Source: Pedobacter cryophilus (GTDB lineage: Bacteria; Bacteroidota; Bacteroidia; Sphingobacteriales; Sphingobacteriaceae). Taken from it: a stretch of 64,000 nucleotides of DNA. Location of the stretch: NCBI RefSeq assembly GCF_005116455.1, contig NZ_SWBP01000004.1, forward strand, positions 62,001 through 126,000, given 5' to 3'. Shown piece by piece: positions 7,191 to 46,611 of the stretch; the first letter of the stretch is position 1, and every line of letters begins with the position of its first letter. A model generated the notes under the pieces. The model saw only the letters and a list, made by a program, of their open reading frames with translations. It had not been told where the DNA came from and ran no database searches. The position numbers were made by a program, and so were the translations under genes.

Positions 7191-7574
7191 TTACAAAATA
7201 GCTGTAATTTCTATTTCAATTAACATTTCTGGATCTATTAATTTAGATACTTCCACCATGGTAGTTACGGGCTTAATATCTTTAAAAAATAAACCATGTG
7301 CTTTTGCAGCTTCTTCCCATTGGCTAATATCAGTTAAAAACATGCGGGTACGCACCACGTTTTCTAAAGAAGCGCCAGCATCTTCCAAAACCTTGGTTAG
7401 TTTGTCTAAAATGGCTTTGGTTTGATCATACATGGTGGTTAAGCTATTTCCTTCTTCGTCTTTTGCGGCAGTAGTGCCTGCAATTTCTATGGTATTACCT
7501 ACTTTTACAGCTCTGCAATAGCCAATAATATCTTCCCACGGAGAGCCTGAGGTGAAGTTTTGTCTGTTATTCAT
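7191..7574 (-). CDS. Rid/YjgF/YER057c/UK114 family protein lacking the RidA arginine
   Basis: This is a 127-residue protein of the Rid superfamily, small trimeric proteins. The fold is clear from GNTIEIAGTTA, the helix AILDKLTKVLEDAGASLENVVRTRMFL and the C-terminal MLIEIEITAIL. In RidA proper, a conserved arginine in the segment PARATVEV binds the carboxylate of 2-aminoacrylate and related imines. Here the segment reads PVTTMVEV, with Thr104 at the arginine position. It is therefore unlikely to be a standard enamine/imine deaminase and is better placed among the Rid subfamilies without this arginine, whose functions are mostly unknown. It is a monocistronic gene on the minus strand. Confidence 0.88.
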   Translation of the reverse strand: MNNRQNFTSGSPWEDIIGYCRAVKVGNTIEIAGTTAAKDEEGNSLTTMYDQTKAILDKLTKVLEDAGASLENVVRTRMFLTDISQWEEAAKAHGLFFKDIKPVTTMVEVSKLIDPEMLIEIEITAIL

Positions 7575-7672
7575 TTTTCTTAATATTTATTGGGCTAAAT
7601 CTAAAAAATCAAATTTGAAATTGAATCAAAATGCGCAATAGATTTTATGTTAAACAAGGAGCGTAGTTTAAT

Positions 7673-8370
7673 TTTTTTAACCACGGAGGACACGGAGTTC
7701 ACAGAGATTTAAAATGTGTTATTTATTTTTCATCATCCAGCTCCGTGTTCTTTATGTAGGTGGTTTAATTTTTTTAACCACGGAGGACACGGAGTTCACA
7801 GAGATTTAAAATGTGTTATTTATTTTTTACCATCCAGCTCCGTGTTCTATGTGTAGGTGGTTTAATTTTTTTAACCACGGAGGACACGGAGTTCACAGAG
7901 ATTTAAAATGTGTTATTTATTTTTCATCATCCAGCTCCGTGTTCTTTATGCAGGTGGTTTAATTTTTTTTAACCACGGAGGACACGGAGTTCACAGAGAT
8001 TTAAAATGTGGTATTTATTTTTTACCATCCAGCTCCGTGTTCTATGTGTAGGTGGTTTAATTTTTTTAACCACGGAGGACACGGAGTTCACAGAGATTTA
8101 AAATGTGTTATTTATTTTTCATCATCCAGCTCCGTGTTCTTTGTGTACTCTGTGGTTTATCTTTTTTAACCACGGAGGACACGGAGTTCACAGAGGTTTA
8201 AAATGTGTTATTTGTTTTTTACCATCCAGCCCCGTGTTCTTTGTGTACTCTGTGGTTTATCTTTTTTAACCACGGAGGACACGGAGTTCACAGAGGTTTA
8301 AAATGTGTTATTTGTTTTTTACCATCCAGCTCCGTGTTCTTTGTGTACTCTGTGGTTTAATTTTTTTTAC
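7673..8370. repeat. Tandem array of seven 97-100 bp repeats (AACCACGGAGGACACGGAG type)
   Basis: Units start with AACCACGGAGG at 7679, 7776, 7873, 7971, 8068, 8168 and 8268. Each ends with CTCCGTGTTCT...GGTGGTT, so the two ends are roughly complementary and each unit could fold into a long hairpin. Units 1, 3 and 5 carry CATCATCC near the middle, while 2, 4, 6 and 7 carry TACCATCC. The first four are 97-98 bp and the last two full units 100 bp, having CTCTGTGGTT in place of AGGTGGTT. There is no credible gene inside. Between the array and the next gene (8371-8577) there is only part of another degenerate repeat. Confidence 0.95.
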
Positions 8371-8378
8371 TACGTCGC

Positions 8379-8460
8379 AGAAGTTTGGCTCTTTGTTTTG
8401 AAAGCAAAAGCCTAAGTTAACTAAACAGGGGCGGCAGCGGTATCTTTTTGCTTGAAGGGA
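8379..8460. repeat. Degenerate GC-rich intergenic repeat, reverse-oriented copy
   Basis: Read on the minus strand this stretch contains AGCAAAAAGATACCGCTGC followed by CGCCCCTGTTTAGTTAAC. This closely parallels GCAAAAAGCTACCGCTGC and TATCAGGTTTATTTAAC at 46461-46498. There is no reading frame or known RNA. It is likely a decayed member of the same dispersed family. Confidence 0.45.
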
Positions 8461-8577
8461 AAGGAGGAGAAGGGAAAGTAAAAAATTTAGCAGAGCACCA
8501 GACTGGCGGAAAATAGGAGCAGAGGATTTGCTTTTCAAAAAAATATTAGCCTAAAAAATAGGATAGTATTTATGGGT

Positions 8578-9987
8578 TTAATTTTCAAAAACCTCGAAAA
8601 CCGGTTGCTCTTTTAATTTTTTTAATGATTTGAATTTAAGACCTGATTTTATAAGTATTAAAAACGCTACCACTACAAATAATAATTTGCAGAAAAGGAT
8701 AAAAGCAAATGGATATTGGCTATAAAGAGTGGTTTCGCTGTTTTTAATTATGGTAATAGGCGTTGGTACAGAAGTATTTTGGTTGTTTATTAAATGGGTT
8801 TCGCCGTTTGAAGATGCTTTGCCTGTATAACCAAAATTACTTTTAATGGCAATGTCTCGTCTGTTTTCTACAGCCCTGAGGCTGTTGTAGTAGAAAAAAA
8901 GTCGGGTGATGTAAGCGTCTTTAAGCCAATTATCATTATTGATACTTACCAAAAATGGAGCACCAGCTTGTACAAGTTGTGCCGCTGTGGGTGCAATAAT
9001 TGCTTCGTTAAAAATAAAAATTCCGTCTATGTCTTTGTTGGTTTCCGTTAAATTACTTTTATTCTCTGGCTTTACAATAAAACTGTGATTAGGTTGCTGA
9101 TTTTTTATCTCTGATTGTGTTTCTTCTTCTTCTTCAATAATTTTTAGGTAAACGTTAACATTTATATCTGAAACCGTTTCAATTGGATTAACAATATAAG
9201 CGCTGTTGATTATTTTATAGTTGTTTTCTTGATGATTTAAAGCTTGGGTCCAATTTGTTAAGTCGGTAGGCATTAATTCAATAGTATTTCTAGTATTAAC
9301 GGCTTGTTTTATGTTGGGCGTTAAGATATTTATTTTTACTTCAGTATTTGGGGTGGCTTTTACACTGCGTATGTTATACAAAAGGAAGTTAGCTGTAAAA
9401 AATAGTCCAATAACCATAGAGGCTACGCCAAGTTGTTTATGTTGCTTAATGCCGTAAGCCGCAAAGCCATTTATTAGTAAAACGGAAAAGGTAAGGATGT
9501 ATATTCCTCCTATTTCGGCCAGTTGTATGGTGTAAATGCTGCCAATTAATGGGTTGCCAAAATGGAAACTATACCAAGGTAAGGTGTTAAATAATTGGTC
9601 GTAAATAAATTCGAAAAGGGTAAATAATGTAGCTAAAATGAGGATGCTTTTGCATGAAAATATAGATTTTGTAAGTCTGTTCCAAATTAGAAAAACAACT
9701 GTAATGGCTATTATAAAATAAGTTACTGATAAAAGCATTCCTAAAAAGCTATATAGCAGATTATCTACTGATGGAATGTTAGATAGGAGCATCCAACTCA
9801 ATATAAATGAGCCTAAAACTGAGCTAAAGATACCGGCTGTTGCTAAGGTTTGTTTATGGTTGGTGTTTTCTAGAGCAAGTAATAGGGGTACAAATGCAAT
9901 AAGTGCTAGCCATGGAAGAAAAAAGAAAATTGAAATAACGATTGCTATGGCTGATATAGCTGGGTAAATAAGAAAGCGTTGCTTCAT
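8578..9987 (-). CDS. Apolipoprotein N-acyltransferase (Lnt)-like membrane protein, probable pseudoenzyme
   Basis: This 469-residue protein has about seven N-terminal membrane segments (residues 5-205), a soluble nitrilase-like domain (about 215-410) and a last membrane segment (about 425-448), the same architecture as Lnt. Lnt-like landmarks remain: NTLPWYSFHFGNPLIGS, a beta strand KINILTPNI, VSINNDNWLKDAY (compare NISNDAWFGD) and SLRAVENRRDIAIKSNFGYTG (compare RALETGRP...RATNNG). The catalytic Glu-Lys-Cys triad appears absent: the WPE box reads NPIE (267-270), no lysine-bearing YNKxHLVPFGE is present, and the Cys of ICYE reads IFNE (325-328). It sits alone on the minus strand. It may keep a structural or regulatory role, or be a decaying paralogue of a true lnt elsewhere. 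Confidence 0.72.
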   Translation of the reverse strand: MKQRFLIYPAISAIAIVISIFFFLPWLALIAFVPLLLALENTNHKQTLATAGIFSSVLGSFILSWMLLSNIPSVDNLLYSFLGMLLSVTYFIIAITVVFLIWNRLTKSIFSCKSILILATLFTLFEFIYDQLFNTLPWYSFHFGNPLIGSIYTIQLAEIGGIYILTFSVLLINGFAAYGIKQHKQLGVASMVIGLFFTANFLLYNIRSVKATPNTEVKINILTPNIKQAVNTRNTIELMPTDLTNWTQALNHQENNYKIINSAYIVNPIETVSDINVNVYLKIIEEEEETQSEIKNQQPNHSFIVKPENKSNLTETNKDIDGIFIFNEAIIAPTAAQLVQAGAPFLVSINNDNWLKDAYITRLFFYYNSLRAVENRRDIAIKSNFGYTGKASSNGETHLINNQNTSVPTPITIIKNSETTLYSQYPFAFILFCKLLFVVVAFLILIKSGLKFKSLKKLKEQPVFEVFEN

Positions 9988-16450: not shown

Positions 16451-16488
16451 AAAAAAATCCTGCTTCAGTTAAGAAACAGGATTTTTTT
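16451..16488. terminator. Bidirectional terminator between SDR and pyrophosphatase genes
   Basis: AAAAAAATCCTG (16451-16462) pairs with CAGGATTTTTTT (16477-16488) around a 14-base loop. A-run and T-run flanks allow it to work for both convergent genes. Confidence 0.85.
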
Positions 16489-16552
16489 ATCAGTTATCAG
16501 TTATCAGTTCTGAGTTATCGGTTATACGTTGTCGGTTATCAGTTAACTCGCA
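16488..16552. repeat. Degenerate GTTATCAGTTATC-type short repeat
   Basis: After the terminator the sequence repeats TTATCAG-like units (TATCAGTTATCAGTTATCAG, then variants GAGTTATCGG, GTTGTCGGTTATCAG). Related runs occur at 46230-46298 and, inverted, at 46672-46713. Similar simple repeats are common in several bacterial phyla. They are noncoding here. Confidence 0.75.
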
Positions 16553-16568
16553 ACCGTAAACTGAATGA

Positions 16569-18926
16569 TTACTTAAAACGAGCGGCCATTCCTGGTTTTT
16601 TGCAGCAGCTCATTCCTGCTTTTTTTGCAGCAGCCATTTTTTCTGGCGTACATTCTTCTCCGTTTTTGTGCATGGCGGCCATCATTTCTGGTGTACATTC
16701 TTTTCCATCTTTGTGCATAGCGGCCATTTTTTCTGGAGAGCATTCCATCCCTTGAACCATTTCTATACCATGGTGTTTTTTGTGCATGGCAGCCATATCT
16801 GATGAACCAGAAACGGCAATGTATGGGGCAATGACTAAAGAAACAATAGACATTAATTTTATAAGGATATTCATAGATGGGCCTGAAGTATCTTTAAATG
16901 GATCGCCAACGGTATCGCCAGTTACAGAAGCCTTATGTGGTTCAGATTTTTTGTAATACATTTCGCCGTTAATCAATACACCTTTTTCGAAAGATTTTTT
17001 AGCGTTATCCCAAGCTCCACCTGCATTAGATTGGAAAATTCCCATTAACACACCAGAAACAGTCACACCGGCTAATAAACCTCCTAATACTTCTGGTCCG
17101 AAAACGAAACCAACAATTAAAGGGGTAATTAAAGCAATAGCGCCGGGTAACATCATTTCTCTGATAGAGGCTTCGGTAGAAATGGCTACGCATTTTTCAT
17201 ACTCGGGTTTAGCGGTATAATCCATAATTCCTGGAATTTCTCTAAACTGGCGACGAACTTCGTTTACCATATCCATAGCTGCTTTACCCACCGCTTGAAT
17301 ACATAATGCCGAAAAGATGAAAGGAATCATCCCGCCTACAAACAGGCCGGCTAAAACTGGCGCTTTGTAAATATCAATGGCATCTATACCTGCAATACCC
17401 ACAAAAGCTGCAAATAAAGCTAAGGAAGTTAATGCTGCTGAGGCGATGGCAAAACCTTTTCCGGTTGCGGCGGTGGTATTACCTACGGCGTCTAAATTAT
17501 CTGTACGTTCTCTCACCTCGGGAGGTAACTGAGCCATTTCGGCAATTCCACCTGCGTTATCTGCAATAGGTCCGAAAGCATCAATTGCTAATTGCATAGC
17601 GGTAGTAGCCATCATGCCGGCTGCGGCAATGGCCACGCCGTATAAACCTGCAAAATAATAAGAAGCCATAATTCCACCGGCTAAAGTTAAAATTGGAATG
17701 ACAGTAGATTTCATCCCTACAGATAAACCTGCAATAATATTGGTGGCATGGCCTGTAGAAGATTGCTGAACAATAGAATTTACCGGAGCTTTACCCATTG
17801 CGGTATAGTATTCTGTCACCACACTCATAATGGTTCCTACCACTAAGCCTACTAAAATAGCGTAGAAAACGTTGATGCTAGAAAACTCATAACCTCTTAA
17901 GCTCATGGTATCTGGCAACATCCACATCACAATAAAATAAGATGCAATACCTGTAATGGCAATTGATGACCAGTTGCCTAAGTTTAACGCCGTTTGTACG
18001 TTAGATTTTTCGTCTTTAATGGTGACAAACCATGTTCCTACAATAGAAAATAAAATACCTAAACCACAAATGACCATAGGCAATAGGATAGGAGACATTC
18101 CGCCAAAATTATCAGCCACTACAATTTCTTGTCCGAGTACCATGGTGGCTAAAATAGTGGCTACATAAGAACCAAAAAGATCGGCTCCCATACCTGCTAC
18201 GTCACCTACGTTATCTCCCACGTTATCTGCAATAGTTGCGGGGTTACGTACATCATCTTCAGGAATTCCGGCTTCTACTTTACCCACTAAATCGGCGCCA
18301 ACATCGGCAGCTTTAGTATAAATACCACCACCTACTCGGGCAAAAAGTGCAATAGACTCGGCTCCTAAAGAGAAACCGGTTAATACTTCAATAGCGGTTT
18401 TAACCGTGTTTTCGCCTAAATCGGCAAAAATAGAAAGGAAAGCAATAAATAAACCGCCTAAACCTAAAACAGCTAAACCTGCCACCCCTAAACCCATTAC
18501 GGTTCCGCCAGTGAAAGACACTTTTAAGGCTTGTTTTAAACTTGTTCTTGCGGCTTGTGTGGTTCTTACGTTTGCTTTTGTAGCGGCTCTCATGCCAATG
18601 TATCCTGCCAAAGCAGAAAATACAGCGCCAATAATAAATGCGATAGAAATGATCCAGCTGGAGTGGATTTCTTTGCCGTTTACTTCATGTATTGTACCAG
18701 AGTAAGCTAATAATGCGGCTGCAAATACTACAAATATGCTCAGGACTTTCCACTCGGCTTTTAAAAATGCCATGGCACCATCGGCAATGTAGCCGGCCAA
18801 TTCAGTCATTTTTGCATCTCCGGCATCTTGTTTGGCTACCCAAATAGACTTCGAAATCATCACCAGTATACCAATAATACCGAGAACGGGGATTAAATAA
18901 ATAAGATTAGTTTGTAGAAATTCCAT
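16569..18926 (-). CDS. hppA: Membrane-bound K+-dependent ion-pumping pyrophosphatase with Cys/Met/His-rich tail
   Basis: This 785-residue protein hydrolyses pyrophosphate and pumps ions across the inner membrane. About 16 membrane segments are visible, with the substrate loops [18 protein letters not shown] and [18 protein letters not shown] and the C-terminal [14 protein letters not shown] loop. The [10 protein letters not shown] box has Ala where K+-independent enzymes have Lys, so it should be K+-dependent. A Glu sits in TM5 (Glu190, GFSLGAES) while TM6 reads DLFGSYVAT without the usual Glu; I recall this arrangement from the Flavobacterium-type H+-pumping branch. The tail from residue 711 holds three to four copies of a 15-residue unit like [15 protein letters not shown], an unusual extension. 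A consensus promoter lies upstream (18975-19004). Confidence 0.95.
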
Positions 18927-19049: not shown

Positions 19050-19620
19050 TTTATACACGAATTTCACGAATTTTCACGAATGCTGGGTGGAGATTTTTAA
19101 CACGGATTAAAATGGATTTTGAAGCACAGATTACATAGATTAAAAAGGATTTCACAGATTTTTGATTTCTTAGTGATCTCTGCGAAATTCTCTGGTTTCT
19201 TTGTGGTTATAATTTTTTGCCACGAATTTCACGAATCTTGGGTGGTGATTTTTAACACGGATTAAAAGGATTTTACAGATTTAGGAGAACAGATTACATA
19301 GATTAATTGGGATTTCACAGATTTTGAAGCACAGATTGCATTGATAAAAAGGGATTTCACTGATTATTGATTTCTTTGTTTTCTCTGTGGACTTTGTGCG
19401 CTCTGTGGTTAATAATTTTTGCCACGAATTTAGGGACACAGATTAAAAAGGATTTCACAGATTTGGGGCTATAGATTTTTGATTTCTTAGTGATCTCTGC
19501 GAAATTCTCTGTTTTCTCTGTGGTTTATAGTTTTTTCAACGAAATATTCTCGGTTTTCTCTGTGGTTATATAATTTTCACTTCAAAATTATCTGTTTACT
19601 CTGTGGTTATTTACCCCTAA
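19050..19620. repeat. Cluster of degenerate CACGAATTTCACGAA / AACACGGATTA / CTCTGTGGTT repeats
   Basis: This noncoding stretch fills most of the 740 bases between hppA and the permease gene. It is a patchwork of short units: CACGAATTTCACGAA, TTTAACACGGATTAAAA, ACAGATTACATAGATTAAAA, GGATTTCACAGATTT and CTCTGTGGTTA. A stretch running through GATTTCTTAGTGATCTCTGC and GAAATTCTCTG occurs near 19159 and again near 19475. The words overlap those of the tandem array at 7673-8370 and the copies at 23343 and 43967. Confidence 0.85.
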
Positions 19621-21183: not shown

Positions 21184-21260
21184 GGGCGTTTTAACACGCT
21201 TTCCGCTGTATCTTTATCCCTGAAAAGGGGATAAAGGATGCCGCTTCAATCGTTAACGCA
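21184..21260. repeat. Degenerate GC-rich intergenic repeat, copy B
   Basis: It starts GGGCG, contains CTTTCCGCTGTATCTTTATC, a hairpin CTTTATCCC/GGGATAAAG (21212-21236), then GGATGCCGCTTCAATCGTTA and ACGCAAA. It shares its ends with the copy at 6992-7094 and lies between the permease and aguB. Confidence 0.6.
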
Positions 21261-21315
21261 AACTCAGGTCTTTAAATTTTAACAAAAATCAGATTTTAAA
21301 TCTCGGTTCAAAAGT

Positions 21316-23342: not shown

Positions 23343-23572
23343 AGTATAGATTTCACAGATTTAGGGGCACAGATTACATTGATTAAAAAATGATTTCACA
23401 GATTTTAAGTGATTTCACAGATTTTTTAGCCACGAATTTCACTAATTTTCACGAATGCTGGGTGGATATTTTTTAACACGGATTATACAGATTAAAAGGA
23501 TTTCATAGATTTCTAAAATAGATTTCTCTTCTAACTTTGTGAATTTCTTTGTGCTCTCTGTGGTTAAATTAT
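23343..23572. repeat. Degenerate CACGAATTTCAC / ACACGGATTA / CTCTGTGGTT repeat copy
   Basis: This noncoding gap between convergent aguA and folC repeats GATTTCACAGATTT units, then holds TTTTCACGAATGCTGGGTGG and TTTTTAACACGGATTA, almost identical to 19070-19108, and ends with GTGCTCTCTGTGGTTAAATT. It reaches both stop codons, leaving no separate terminator that I can see. Confidence 0.85.
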
Positions 23573-26884: not shown

Positions 26885-27919
26885 TTATTTTAAAGGTTTT
26901 ATAGGCTTAATAAAAGCCTCGGGATTTAGTTGTTCTCTAATTCTTTTTAGTTCTTGATTTGCTTCTGCTTCATTGTATAAAGTAGCGCCACTAATTTTAA
27001 TCATTGGTCCATCAGCATCTTCTACAATATAGGCGTTAATTCCATTTGCTTTTAATTGAGTAACTCTTTTTAAAGCATCAGACTTTTTTAAATATAAACC
27101 AATGATAATTTCATAACGAATATCACTTTTCTTTGGTATCTGCTTTTGATTTACAGAAACCGCAGTGGAATCTTTTGCTTCTTCTACTTCAAAACCTTTT
27201 GCTTTTAATTTAGCTTCAATATCTGCGTTATTATACACAGAATCAGCTTTTTGAATAGCCTGAGCACTTGGAGTTTGATTTACCGTTACAGGTTTTTCAC
27301 TAACGGTTTCTTTTTTTAATTGTTGATATAAGTTTTGGTAAAAATTGGGGTTTAAATAATAAACAGCAATTAAACTCCCTATTATCGCCGCAATAACAAA
27401 AACTAAAACAATTTTTAAGGTAATGCTTTTGTGTTCATCAAACTCATTGGGCATGGCTGTATTTAAGGCTTGTTGTGCAAGACTATAATTTTCAGCTTCG
27501 GCGTCTGATAAGTTGAGGGCTTTTGCATCTATCGGTGTTAAGCCAAAAAAATCTTTACTGTTTTCTGATTTGGTATCTGATTGTAAAGTTAACTTTTCAC
27601 CATCTAAAGTAAGTTCGCCAATATTGTTGATATGAACTGTTTGGCTTTTTAAAATGGTTTTGAGGTCTTTTACATACTCGTCTAAAATCGCGTAAGCAGA
27701 TGTTAATGAGGTATTGTTTCGTTGACTGATTAACTGAACCAATTTATCATCATGACGGTATTCTGTAGTAAAATCTATTTTGGTAGAAGGCGGATAAAAA
27801 GTTTCTGTTCCTTCATCGTAGTATCCTGCTGATCGCTTTTGATAAAACTTTCCTAAACTAGGCACAACCACGTGGTCTTTGGCGTTTATCAATTCGGCGA
27901 AATAAGGTGATATATCCAT
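26885..27919 (-). CDS. HU-CCDC81 and SPOR domain membrane protein
   Basis: This 344-residue protein has an N-terminal region (1-125) resembling the prokaryotic HU-CCDC81 domain pair (ISPYFAELINAKDHVVVPSLG, then HINNIGELTLDGEKLTLQ), a linker, one membrane helix (168-189, ITLKIVLVFVIAAIIGSLIA), and a C-terminal SPOR domain (about 265-335, YEIIIGLYLKKSDALKRV ... GPMIKISGATLYNEAEANQEL). SPOR domains bind denuded peptidoglycan glycans, often at division sites. The topology puts the HU-like part in the cytoplasm and SPOR in the periplasm. It lies directly before exbB, so it may link the TonB system to the cell wall; that is inference. Function is not established. Confidence 0.85.
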   Translation of the reverse strand: MDISPYFAELINAKDHVVVPSLGKFYQKRSAGYYDEGTETFYPPSTKIDFTTEYRHDDKLVQLISQRNNTSLTSAYAILDEYVKDLKTILKSQTVHINNIGELTLDGEKLTLQSDTKSENSKDFFGLTPIDAKALNLSDAEAENYSLAQQALNTAMPNEFDEHKSITLKIVLVFVIAAIIGSLIAVYYLNPNFYQNLYQQLKKETVSEKPVTVNQTPSAQAIQKADSVYNNADIEAKLKAKGFEVEEAKDSTAVSVNQKQIPKKSDIRYEIIIGLYLKKSDALKRVTQLKANGINAYIVEDADGPMIKISGATLYNEAEANQELKRIREQLNPEAFIKPIKPLK

Positions 27920-43966: not shown

Positions 43967-44100
43967 TTAGCTCTGTGACCTCCGTGTGCTCTGTGGTTAA
44001 AATTTCACCATCACGCATAAAACACCTTATTTTATTATTTTTCAAAGCAATCACTGCATGTTTATTTATCACCACAGAGATCGCAGAGTTCACAGAGAAA
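43967..44100. repeat. AACCACAGAG/CTCTGTGGTT repeat copy
   Basis: It starts AGCTCTGTGACCTCCGTGTG and CTCTGTGGTTAAAA and ends with TCACCACAGAGATCGCAGAG and TTCACAGAGA, so the ends are inverted copies around a 60-base spacer. The words match those of the tandem array at 7673-8370. Confidence 0.8.
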
Positions 44101-46397: not shown

Positions 46398-46485
46398 GCT
46401 ACTATTTCCCGCCAGTCCTGCTATTCGCTAAAGTTTTTGCAGGCCTGCCCTTTTACCCAAACGCAAAAAGCTACCGCTGCTATCA
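46398..46485. repeat. Degenerate GC-rich intergenic repeat, copy C
   Basis: The stretch CCCGCCAGTCCTGCTATTCG ... GCAAAAAGCTACCGCTGC with TATCAGG includes a hairpin of GTTTTTGC and GCAAAAAGC and a GCAGGCCTGC palindrome (46439-46448). It shares the AAAAAG(C/A)TACCGCTGC core with the reversed copy at 8379-8460. It has no reading frame. Confidence 0.55.
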
Positions 46486-46611
46486 GGTTTATTTAACTTA
46501 GGGTTTTGCTACTATTAATGGTAATTGATGAAGTTACTTAGATTAAAAAAAAGAGATCTTGCTTAAGCAGATATTGATTTAATCAGTACAAAATTGCTTA
46601 AAAATAATAAC

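Follow-up and report, generated by a model that had tools for sequence, protein, structure and literature searches.

What is a tandem array of seven hairpin-like units doing in the junction between two genes, and from what did its units derive? The array lies at positions 7666 to 8374 of a 64,000-nucleotide stretch of Pedobacter cryophilus DNA, here called the window, in a genome of 3.99 Mb and 16 contigs (the source genome, of the same genus as genome G003). Its two neighbors are minus-strand genes: it lies downstream of the stop codon of an lnt-like gene (8578 to 9987; PF20154, 53.4 bits; TIGR00546 below its cut-off) and upstream of the start codon of a gene of the RidA family (7191 to 7574; PF01042, 92.7 bits).

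Architecture of the array and alternation of its units

Seven hairpin-like units of 97 to 100 bp, standing head to tail, had been described at this locus in an earlier note, and both TRF and unit splitting bore this description out. TRF reported a period of 97 bp over 7666 to 8374 (7.2 copies, 93% matches, score 1146), and a period of 195 bp over 7666 to 8369 scored slightly higher (1188). The seven noncoding hairpin units are separated by T-rich linkers and start at 7679, 7776, 7873, 7971, 8068, 8168, and 8268, at spacings of 97, 97, 98, 97, 100, and 100 bp, with unit 7 continuing into the flank. Each unit starts with AACCACGG and ends with GTGGTT. In each, three CACRGAG words spaced by 9 bp make up the left arm; an A+T-rich interior of about 32 bp follows, and then a right arm in which the words are inverted. 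The array is not of the CRISPR kind: whole units of 97 to 100 bp repeat, at 88 to 99% identity, and no unique spacers stand between them.

The best hairpin is that of unit 7 (8268 to 8367, plus strand, as are all units; centre B, full right arm). Its left arm, AACCACGGAGGACACGGAGTTCACAGAG (8268 to 8295, plus strand), is shared by all units, and in the predicted fold it pairs with the inverted words of the right arm, AGCTCCGTGTTCTTTGTGTACTCTGTGGTT (8328 to 8357, plus strand). Compared with shuffles, the predicted fold of this unit reached -33.7 kcal/mol as RNA (z -4.8, plus strand) and -14.8 as DNA (z -3.6). Unit 2 is predicted to fold more weakly (DNA z -2.6, plus strand; RNA z -2.0, minus strand) because units 1 to 4 lost one right-arm word; the right end of these four units is damaged and reads AGGTGGTT where units 5 to 7 have ACTCTGTGGTT.

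The centres of the units alternate as A-B-A-B-A-B-B, just as had been proposed, with CATCATCC in units 1, 3, and 5 and TACCATCC in units 2, 4, 6, and 7. A second marker, TTCTTTATG versus TTCTATGTG, alternates as claimed in units 1 to 4; units 5 to 7 read TTCTTTGTG and CTCTGTGGTT. Growth by copying of two-unit blocks, which the earlier note had drawn from this pattern, and the grouping of odd with odd and even with even units, by which it could be checked, hold for units 1 to 4 and fail for units 5 to 7. Unit 3 (7873 to 7970, centre A) is closest to unit 1 (7679 to 7775, centre A, right arm shortened), with an identity of 0.980, and unit 4 (7971 to 8067, centre B) is closest to unit 2 (7776 to 7872, centre B, right arm shortened), with an identity of 0.990; neighboring units fall below both pairs (0.959, 0.939, and 0.929). 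The remaining units group by position, unit 5 (8068 to 8167, centre A, full right arm) with units 6 (8168 to 8267, centre B, full right arm) and 7 (identities of 0.95 and 0.94), and unit 6 with unit 7 (0.97). Unit 5 looks like a mosaic, with a left part and centre of type A and a right end as in units 6 and 7. Over all seven units, identity at offset 2 was not significantly above identity at offset 1 (permutation P = 0.40). Two-unit growth as a general rule was rejected, the offset-2 excess being nonsignificant in the window and in arrays L194, L196, L003, L205, L064, L065, and L208; judged from the sequence, two-unit block copying is a fair reading for units 1 to 4 only. Nor does the difference in right ends call for two sources of the array, as had been suggested, since units 1 to 4 are simply without part of the right-arm end.

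The words of the array had also been held to recur singly at 19050, 23343, and 43967. A dispersed family is indeed present, and single recurrence describes the three places only loosely. At 43967 to 44098, a word search located a second family site in which right-arm words are followed by left-arm words, so that the words face outward. The stretches at 19050 to 19610 and 23343 to 23565 hold clusters of related but different words (CACGAAT, CACRGATT, and CTCTGTGG) and not single copies of the 97-bp unit; word types of these two clusters also flank other GxxExxY genes of the source genome (L013 and L014). Rfam gave no match to the array and two gathering-level matches elsewhere in the window, both to Flavo-1 RNA (21188 to 21262 and 46410 to 46494, minus strand). 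Short tandem repeats of 7, 25, and 45 bp occupy 16487 to 16736 of the window, mostly inside overlapping open frames.

Beyond the window, TRF found three more arrays of the family in the source genome, at least four in all, each of the three with its own interior. They have periods of 108 bp (5.6 copies; contig C1, about 986425 to 987017; L194), of 85 and 107 bp (contig C9, about 675084 to 676146; L196), and of 99 bp (7.8 copies, 80% matches; contig C15, about 27179 to 27912; L003). In relatives, TRF reported arrays of 154 bp (5.3 copies, 98% matches; L205, in G013), 149 bp (4.3 copies; L208), and 150 bp (4.7 copies; L065).

RidA was detected in 15 of 18 genomes of the genus, the source genome included. 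Among the 13 relatives with readable upstream DNA, none shows an array or even one unit ahead of RidA, and each has 0 to 2 stray words there. The lnt gene adjoins RidA only in the source genome among the relatives examined, and a clean empty site for the window array was not obtained because the relatives without the array are also without this adjacency. The array may mark a rearrangement breakpoint, the lnt-RidA neighborhood (7574 to 8578) being absent beside RidA in the relatives examined.

Array words on both sides of GxxExxY genes

A search with PF13366 recovered six GxxExxY genes in the source genome, none of them on the contig of the window. CACRGAG arms are present at only one of these six loci, L010, where an element of 486 bp (1427 to 1912) has its GxxExxY gene (1483 to 1860) exactly between two arms. 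The gene is a clear member of its family (TIGR04256, 150.4 bits against a cut-off of 35), which is also described by PF13366 (PDDEXK_3). Searching genome contigs with the L010 protein gave 203 loci, of which 80 were kept.

A CAC[AG][GA]AG word was found within 150 bp upstream of the gene in 56 of the 80 loci, an inverted word within 150 bp downstream in 55, and both in 45; words in the opposite orientation occurred at 21 and 18 of the 80. Within 50 bp of the gene, words stood at densities of 16 and 21.8 per kb, compared with 0.17 to 0.25 per kb beyond 1 kb and 0.20 to 0.27 per kb inside the gene. When two words were demanded, 36 loci had them upstream, 32 downstream, and 22 on both sides, versus about 1 to 2% per side and none on both sides for 775 dummy genes in the same loci. 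A second set of 30 GxxExxY loci from other genomes gave 17 upstream, 16 downstream, and 14 both. The 80 loci are not independent since, for example, 11 Flavobacteriaceae loci represent one orthologous site (with words on both sides in all 11) and four represent one Lutibacter site.

These counts bear on another account of the array, a plain minisatellite whose hairpin shares short words with GxxExxY flanks by chance and without any mobile element. Homogeneity within the array and copying of blocks are what slippage produces, and the word test by itself uses 7-base words. However, words at the edges of GxxExxY genes are about 60- to 100-fold over background, the arms of the array units and of the GxxExxY element match over about 28 to 30 bp on both sides, and in relatives an interior is common to units and GxxExxY elements. 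We consider a chance resemblance of this kind very improbable.

Inverted flanks are not confined to the CACRGAG word, which is replaced by other inverted words at several GxxExxY loci (L013, L011, L169, L170, L189, L191, and others). The inverted-repeat score around the gene had a median of 18.5 in 78 loci and of 19 in 28 loci of the second set, versus 10 for 356 dummy genes, 12 for mismatched loci, and 10.5 for 10 RidA loci. Left out of this comparison because of a short flank, an edge, or a stop were 2 of the 80 and 2 of the 30 GxxExxY loci; 5 of 15 RidA loci (the source genome's own, and edges) and 4 of 6 Y1 loci of the source genome were dropped as well. About half of the GxxExxY loci, including three of the six in the source genome, do not rise above the range of mismatched loci. 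Arms on both sides were also present in Treponema (L073 and L108), Balneolales (L075), Ignavibacteriota (L083), Chloroflexales (L117), Neomarinimicrobiota (L118), and Erginobacter (L124), these being mostly metagenome bins with names as recorded. In the Lutibacter orthologues (L093, L094, L095, and L100), the right-arm words downstream of the gene differ by species yet keep the form of words (CTNNGTG), suggesting that selection favors the pattern of words and not an exact sequence.

Gene-less units, copy number, and probable gain of the element

When the gene is taken out of the L010 element, what remains can be aligned over its full length with the array units and also with the unit at L002. 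With the interiors alone compared, array unit and L010 element match modestly (P = 0.007 to 0.067, depending on the unit and the side). A closer view of gene-less units comes from a site beside a topoisomerase-subunit-like gene, where the source genome has a GxxExxY element followed by one gene-less unit. Matches of the window units to this gene-less unit reach 71 to 76% and cover about 110 bp (best E = 1e-13); they run on the opposite strand, as a near-palindrome allows. At the same site, two gene-less units, each of about 167 bp, precede the element in G008 and G010, and in G008 the interior of these units matches the part of the element that lies between its arm and the start codon (score 46, versus at most 31 in 5000 shuffles). 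G013 has about five 154-bp units directly before the GxxExxY gene. G012 has only 73 bp between the neighboring genes, which may reflect loss rather than an empty site; G014 has other DNA there, and the comparison was made outside G001, G002, G006, G015, and G016. Gene-less copy number at this one site thus differs between species, at 0, 1, 2, or about 5 units. Similarly, L064 and L065 are 92 to 95% identical over long aligned stretches and differ in the number of units beside the GxxExxY gene.

The gene-bearing element itself is present or absent as a whole. In the genus of G246 (g88, eight genomes), a short-armed GxxExxY element stands before an scpB-like gene (a name assigned by eye) in G246, G290, G220, and G351. 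The element is absent from G363, G261, and G257, where the two neighboring genes overlap or lie 2 to 3 bp apart, and in G232 most of the GxxExxY gene is gone and the outer ends of both arms remain. A tree of the flanks, which is unrooted, splits these genomes five versus three with a support of 1.000. Gain of the element in the ancestor of the five genomes is the simpler reading, because under loss the close packing of the two genes would have to be re-created, either three times or a single time on the stem; on an unrooted tree, loss would be the less likely alternative. Inspection by eye of the junctions read in this genus, among which there was no recent insertion pair, showed no target-site duplication.

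A repeat of about 202 bp in G031 was rejected as proof of recent movement. Its copies are 94 to 100% identical between places and often lie at contig ends (L197, 868 to 1087; L198 and L200 to L204), with outward-facing CACRGAG words between different ends. These ends look like those of an insertion sequence, with which the repeat presumably moved.

Taken together, we think it probable that the window array arose in BIME-like fashion, by tandem amplification of a small GxxExxY element that had lost its gene through internal deletion. In its full form of about 0.5 kb, the element would have CACRGAG words every 9 to 11 bp in its left arm and inverted words in its right arm, with a GxxExxY gene of some 125 codons for a PD-(D/E)XK protein in between, and this arm-gene-arm structure would enter a gene junction as a unit. 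The gene would then be deleted, leaving a hairpin unit that slippage or unequal exchange could multiply into a head-to-tail row, at times two units per step, with its near-palindromic form helping the multiplication; the GxxExxY protein may make copies by nicking or trimming hairpin ends. For the window array, we infer derivation from a GxxExxY element of the source lineage. Against this reading count the CACRGAG arms at only one of the six GxxExxY loci of the source genome, the placement of all six on other contigs, and the modest interior match of the window units with L010.

Y1 transposases, the GxxExxY protein, and related systems

Co-occurrence across genomes was examined in a sample of 247 Bacteroidota genomes, with a repeat pair defined as CACRGAGN{2,4}CACRGAG and a repeat-rich genome as one with five or more pairs. 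All 33 repeat-rich genomes carry GxxExxY (PF13366), compared with 122 of 247 overall (Fisher P = 6e-12; permutation within families, P = 0.0013). The same 33 also all carry Y1 transposases (PF01797), compared with 176 of 247 overall (P = 6e-6), so that the genome-wide link between GxxExxY and the repeats is not specific. It is the position of the words next to the gene, not the genome-wide count, that links them specifically to GxxExxY.

The shared presence of Y1 raises the possibility that the hairpin units are mobilized in trans by another enzyme, most likely a Y1 (HUH) transposase, and that GxxExxY is a passenger between two units. Hairpins are the usual substrate of this enzyme class, and GxxExxY-positive genomes were repeat-rich only in the company of Y1 (33 of 104 with Y1 versus 0 of 18 without; P = 0.003). 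A Y1 transposase would act on the units as RAYTs act on REPs (PMC2817692). However, Y1-positive genomes were repeat-rich only when they also had GxxExxY (33 of 104 versus 0 of 72; P = 3e-9), and a passenger gene would not be expected to occupy the same position between arms in 45 of 80 loci or to show a dN/dS near 0.05 to 0.14. In addition, none of 20 Y1 genes from repeat-rich genomes has the words within 150 bp, about half of these genes having strong inverted repeats of their own, and no CAC[AG]GAG word lies within 1.5 kb of any of the six Y1 loci of the source genome. Mobilization by Y1 is, in our judgment, improbable, and Y1 transposases as a source of the words in cis were rejected on the 0 of 20 flanked genes. 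Four-helix-bundle (PF05635) genes were likewise rejected as a word source, with any word nearby in 4 of 30 loci. Several Y1 genes (L214, L218, L222 to L225, and L227) have inverted repeats on both sides that score 30 to 61 and are TIRtron-like.

Values of dN/dS were 0.025 to 0.14 in six pairs from the genus of G246 and 0.045 to 0.26 in seven other pairs, indicating purifying selection on the GxxExxY gene. An alignment of 44 proteins, chosen from the 80 loci by intact frame, has a conserved D...ExK core in which D68, K80, Q92, and Y96 are invariant and E78 is present in 90% or more. The AlphaFold2 model of the protein (pLDDT 95.0) gave weak best matches in Foldseek to SSO0001 (Cas4-like), LHK-Exo, and lambda exonuclease (E = 0.008 to 0.05; TM = 0.42 to 0.50), with none at an E value of 0.001 or below. 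A sequence search of the PDB gave no match at an E value of 1, and PADLOC and PHROGs gave none beyond chance level. GxxExxY is rare on plasmids (8 of 72,556 plasmid records) and was found in none of 50,697 phage records.

The GxxExxY element is no busy transposon: many loci are old and stay put, since the 11 Flavobacteriaceae loci are one orthologous site. Gene and arms could also be read as an ancient module that seldom moves, with the arms working for the gene through protein binding or RNA structure, for example in autoregulation or defence, and with gene-less units and arrays as dead copies that ordinary recombination and slippage have scattered. Retention of words on both sides throughout that orthologous site is consistent with such a module, as are purifying selection on the gene, Lutibacter arm words that change quickly between orthologues yet stay words, and a fold nearest, weakly, to Cas4 and lambda-type exonucleases. 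It would, however, leave unexplained both the clean presence or absence of the whole unit in genus g88 and the occurrence in one genome of six GxxExxY genes with different flanking words, and we regard it as unlikely.

For the favored reading, a mobile element with gene-less derivatives, support comes from the association of arms and gene in cis, its specificity versus Y1, the presence or absence of whole units, the gene-deleted form, the varying gene-less tandems, and purifying selection. We suggest only tentatively, from position, selection, and fold class, that the GxxExxY protein drives movement or copying by acting on the hairpin arms. In the same cautious spirit, GxxExxY genes may define a group of very small mobile elements (about 0.5 kb, with one 125-codon PD-(D/E)XK nuclease and arms of helically phased 7-base words) that are not of the DDE, HUH, tyrosine recombinase, or serine recombinase types, whose nuclease would act on hairpin or cruciform arms and whose nonautonomous offspring would be the gene-less units and arrays. 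Such a class would cross phyla.

Among known systems, MITEs are gene-less units with terminal inverted arms and an interior retained from a gene-bearing parent. The gene-less units resemble them in keeping the arms of a GxxExxY element and in sharing its interior, the latter clearly in G008 and modestly for the window array versus L010, and an empty site exists in relatives for the gene-bearing element only (four present, one gene-deleted, and three absent of eight). Unlike in MITEs, the transposase is only putative and head-to-tail arrays are prominent; a target-site duplication was not evident by eye at the junctions read. The REP/BIME-RAYT system, as far as the accessible parts of PMC2817692 and PMC3733652 describe it, is similar in that a palindromic repeat stands in two inverted copies around a small gene and is also dispersed without the gene, and in forming intergenic tandem mosaic arrays (here in the window, L194, L196, L003, L205, L208, and L065), some of them beside the gene. 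From the same accounts, RAYTs are tyrosine HUH transposases, whereas the gene here belongs to a PD-(D/E)XK family, and a REP is a GTAG-headed palindrome of 20 to 40 bp, whereas the unit here has 90 to 170 bp with 7-base words at 9 to 11 bp. A GTAG/GTRG head is absent from the array units, GTAG standing before unit 1 only. Because both RAYT association and a GTAG head were looked for and not found, we do not count the array as a member of the REP-BIME-RAYT system. TIRtrons, Y1 genes with long terminal inverted repeats in the accessible part of PMC3733652, share a small gene with inverted repeats at its flanks, copies of which are found elsewhere in the genome by themselves; they differ in protein family, and their TIRs are not made of CACRGAG words.

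In the accessible literature, which excludes most subscription journals, GxxExxY/PF13366 is named in passing only, without a described genetic setting, and no link between GxxExxY and repeats was found. If our reading is true, this common family would for the first time have a clear genetic setting. Both GxxExxY genes and repeats of the ACCACAGAG/CTCTGTGG type are common, and neither has been explained so far; should they form one system, thousands of "hypothetical nuclease" annotations and many intergenic repeats would be parts of one kind of element, and a Cas4/lambda-exonuclease-like protein might bring about movement by a new chemistry. In that case the arrays would mark where elements had been active and, through their copy number, would be fast-changing intergenic sites.

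A further likeness is to the intervening sequences of 23S rRNA that carry S23 genes, which, in the part of PMC4990558 available, are about 0.4 to 0.5 kb, contain one small gene of unknown function, and are seen as selfish. Their protein family is a different one, and the GxxExxY element is not in rRNA. Four-helix-bundle (S23-like, PF05635) genes in our set (L134 to L163; e.g., L138, L149, and L156) are flanked by inverted short-period words of their own, GTAAGT/TTAAGT and GAGTATTGAG. Their inverted-repeat score had a median of 18 (29 of 30 loci, L159 dropped) versus 11 for mismatched loci, and these genes with inverted flanks are possibly a parallel class of small-gene elements.
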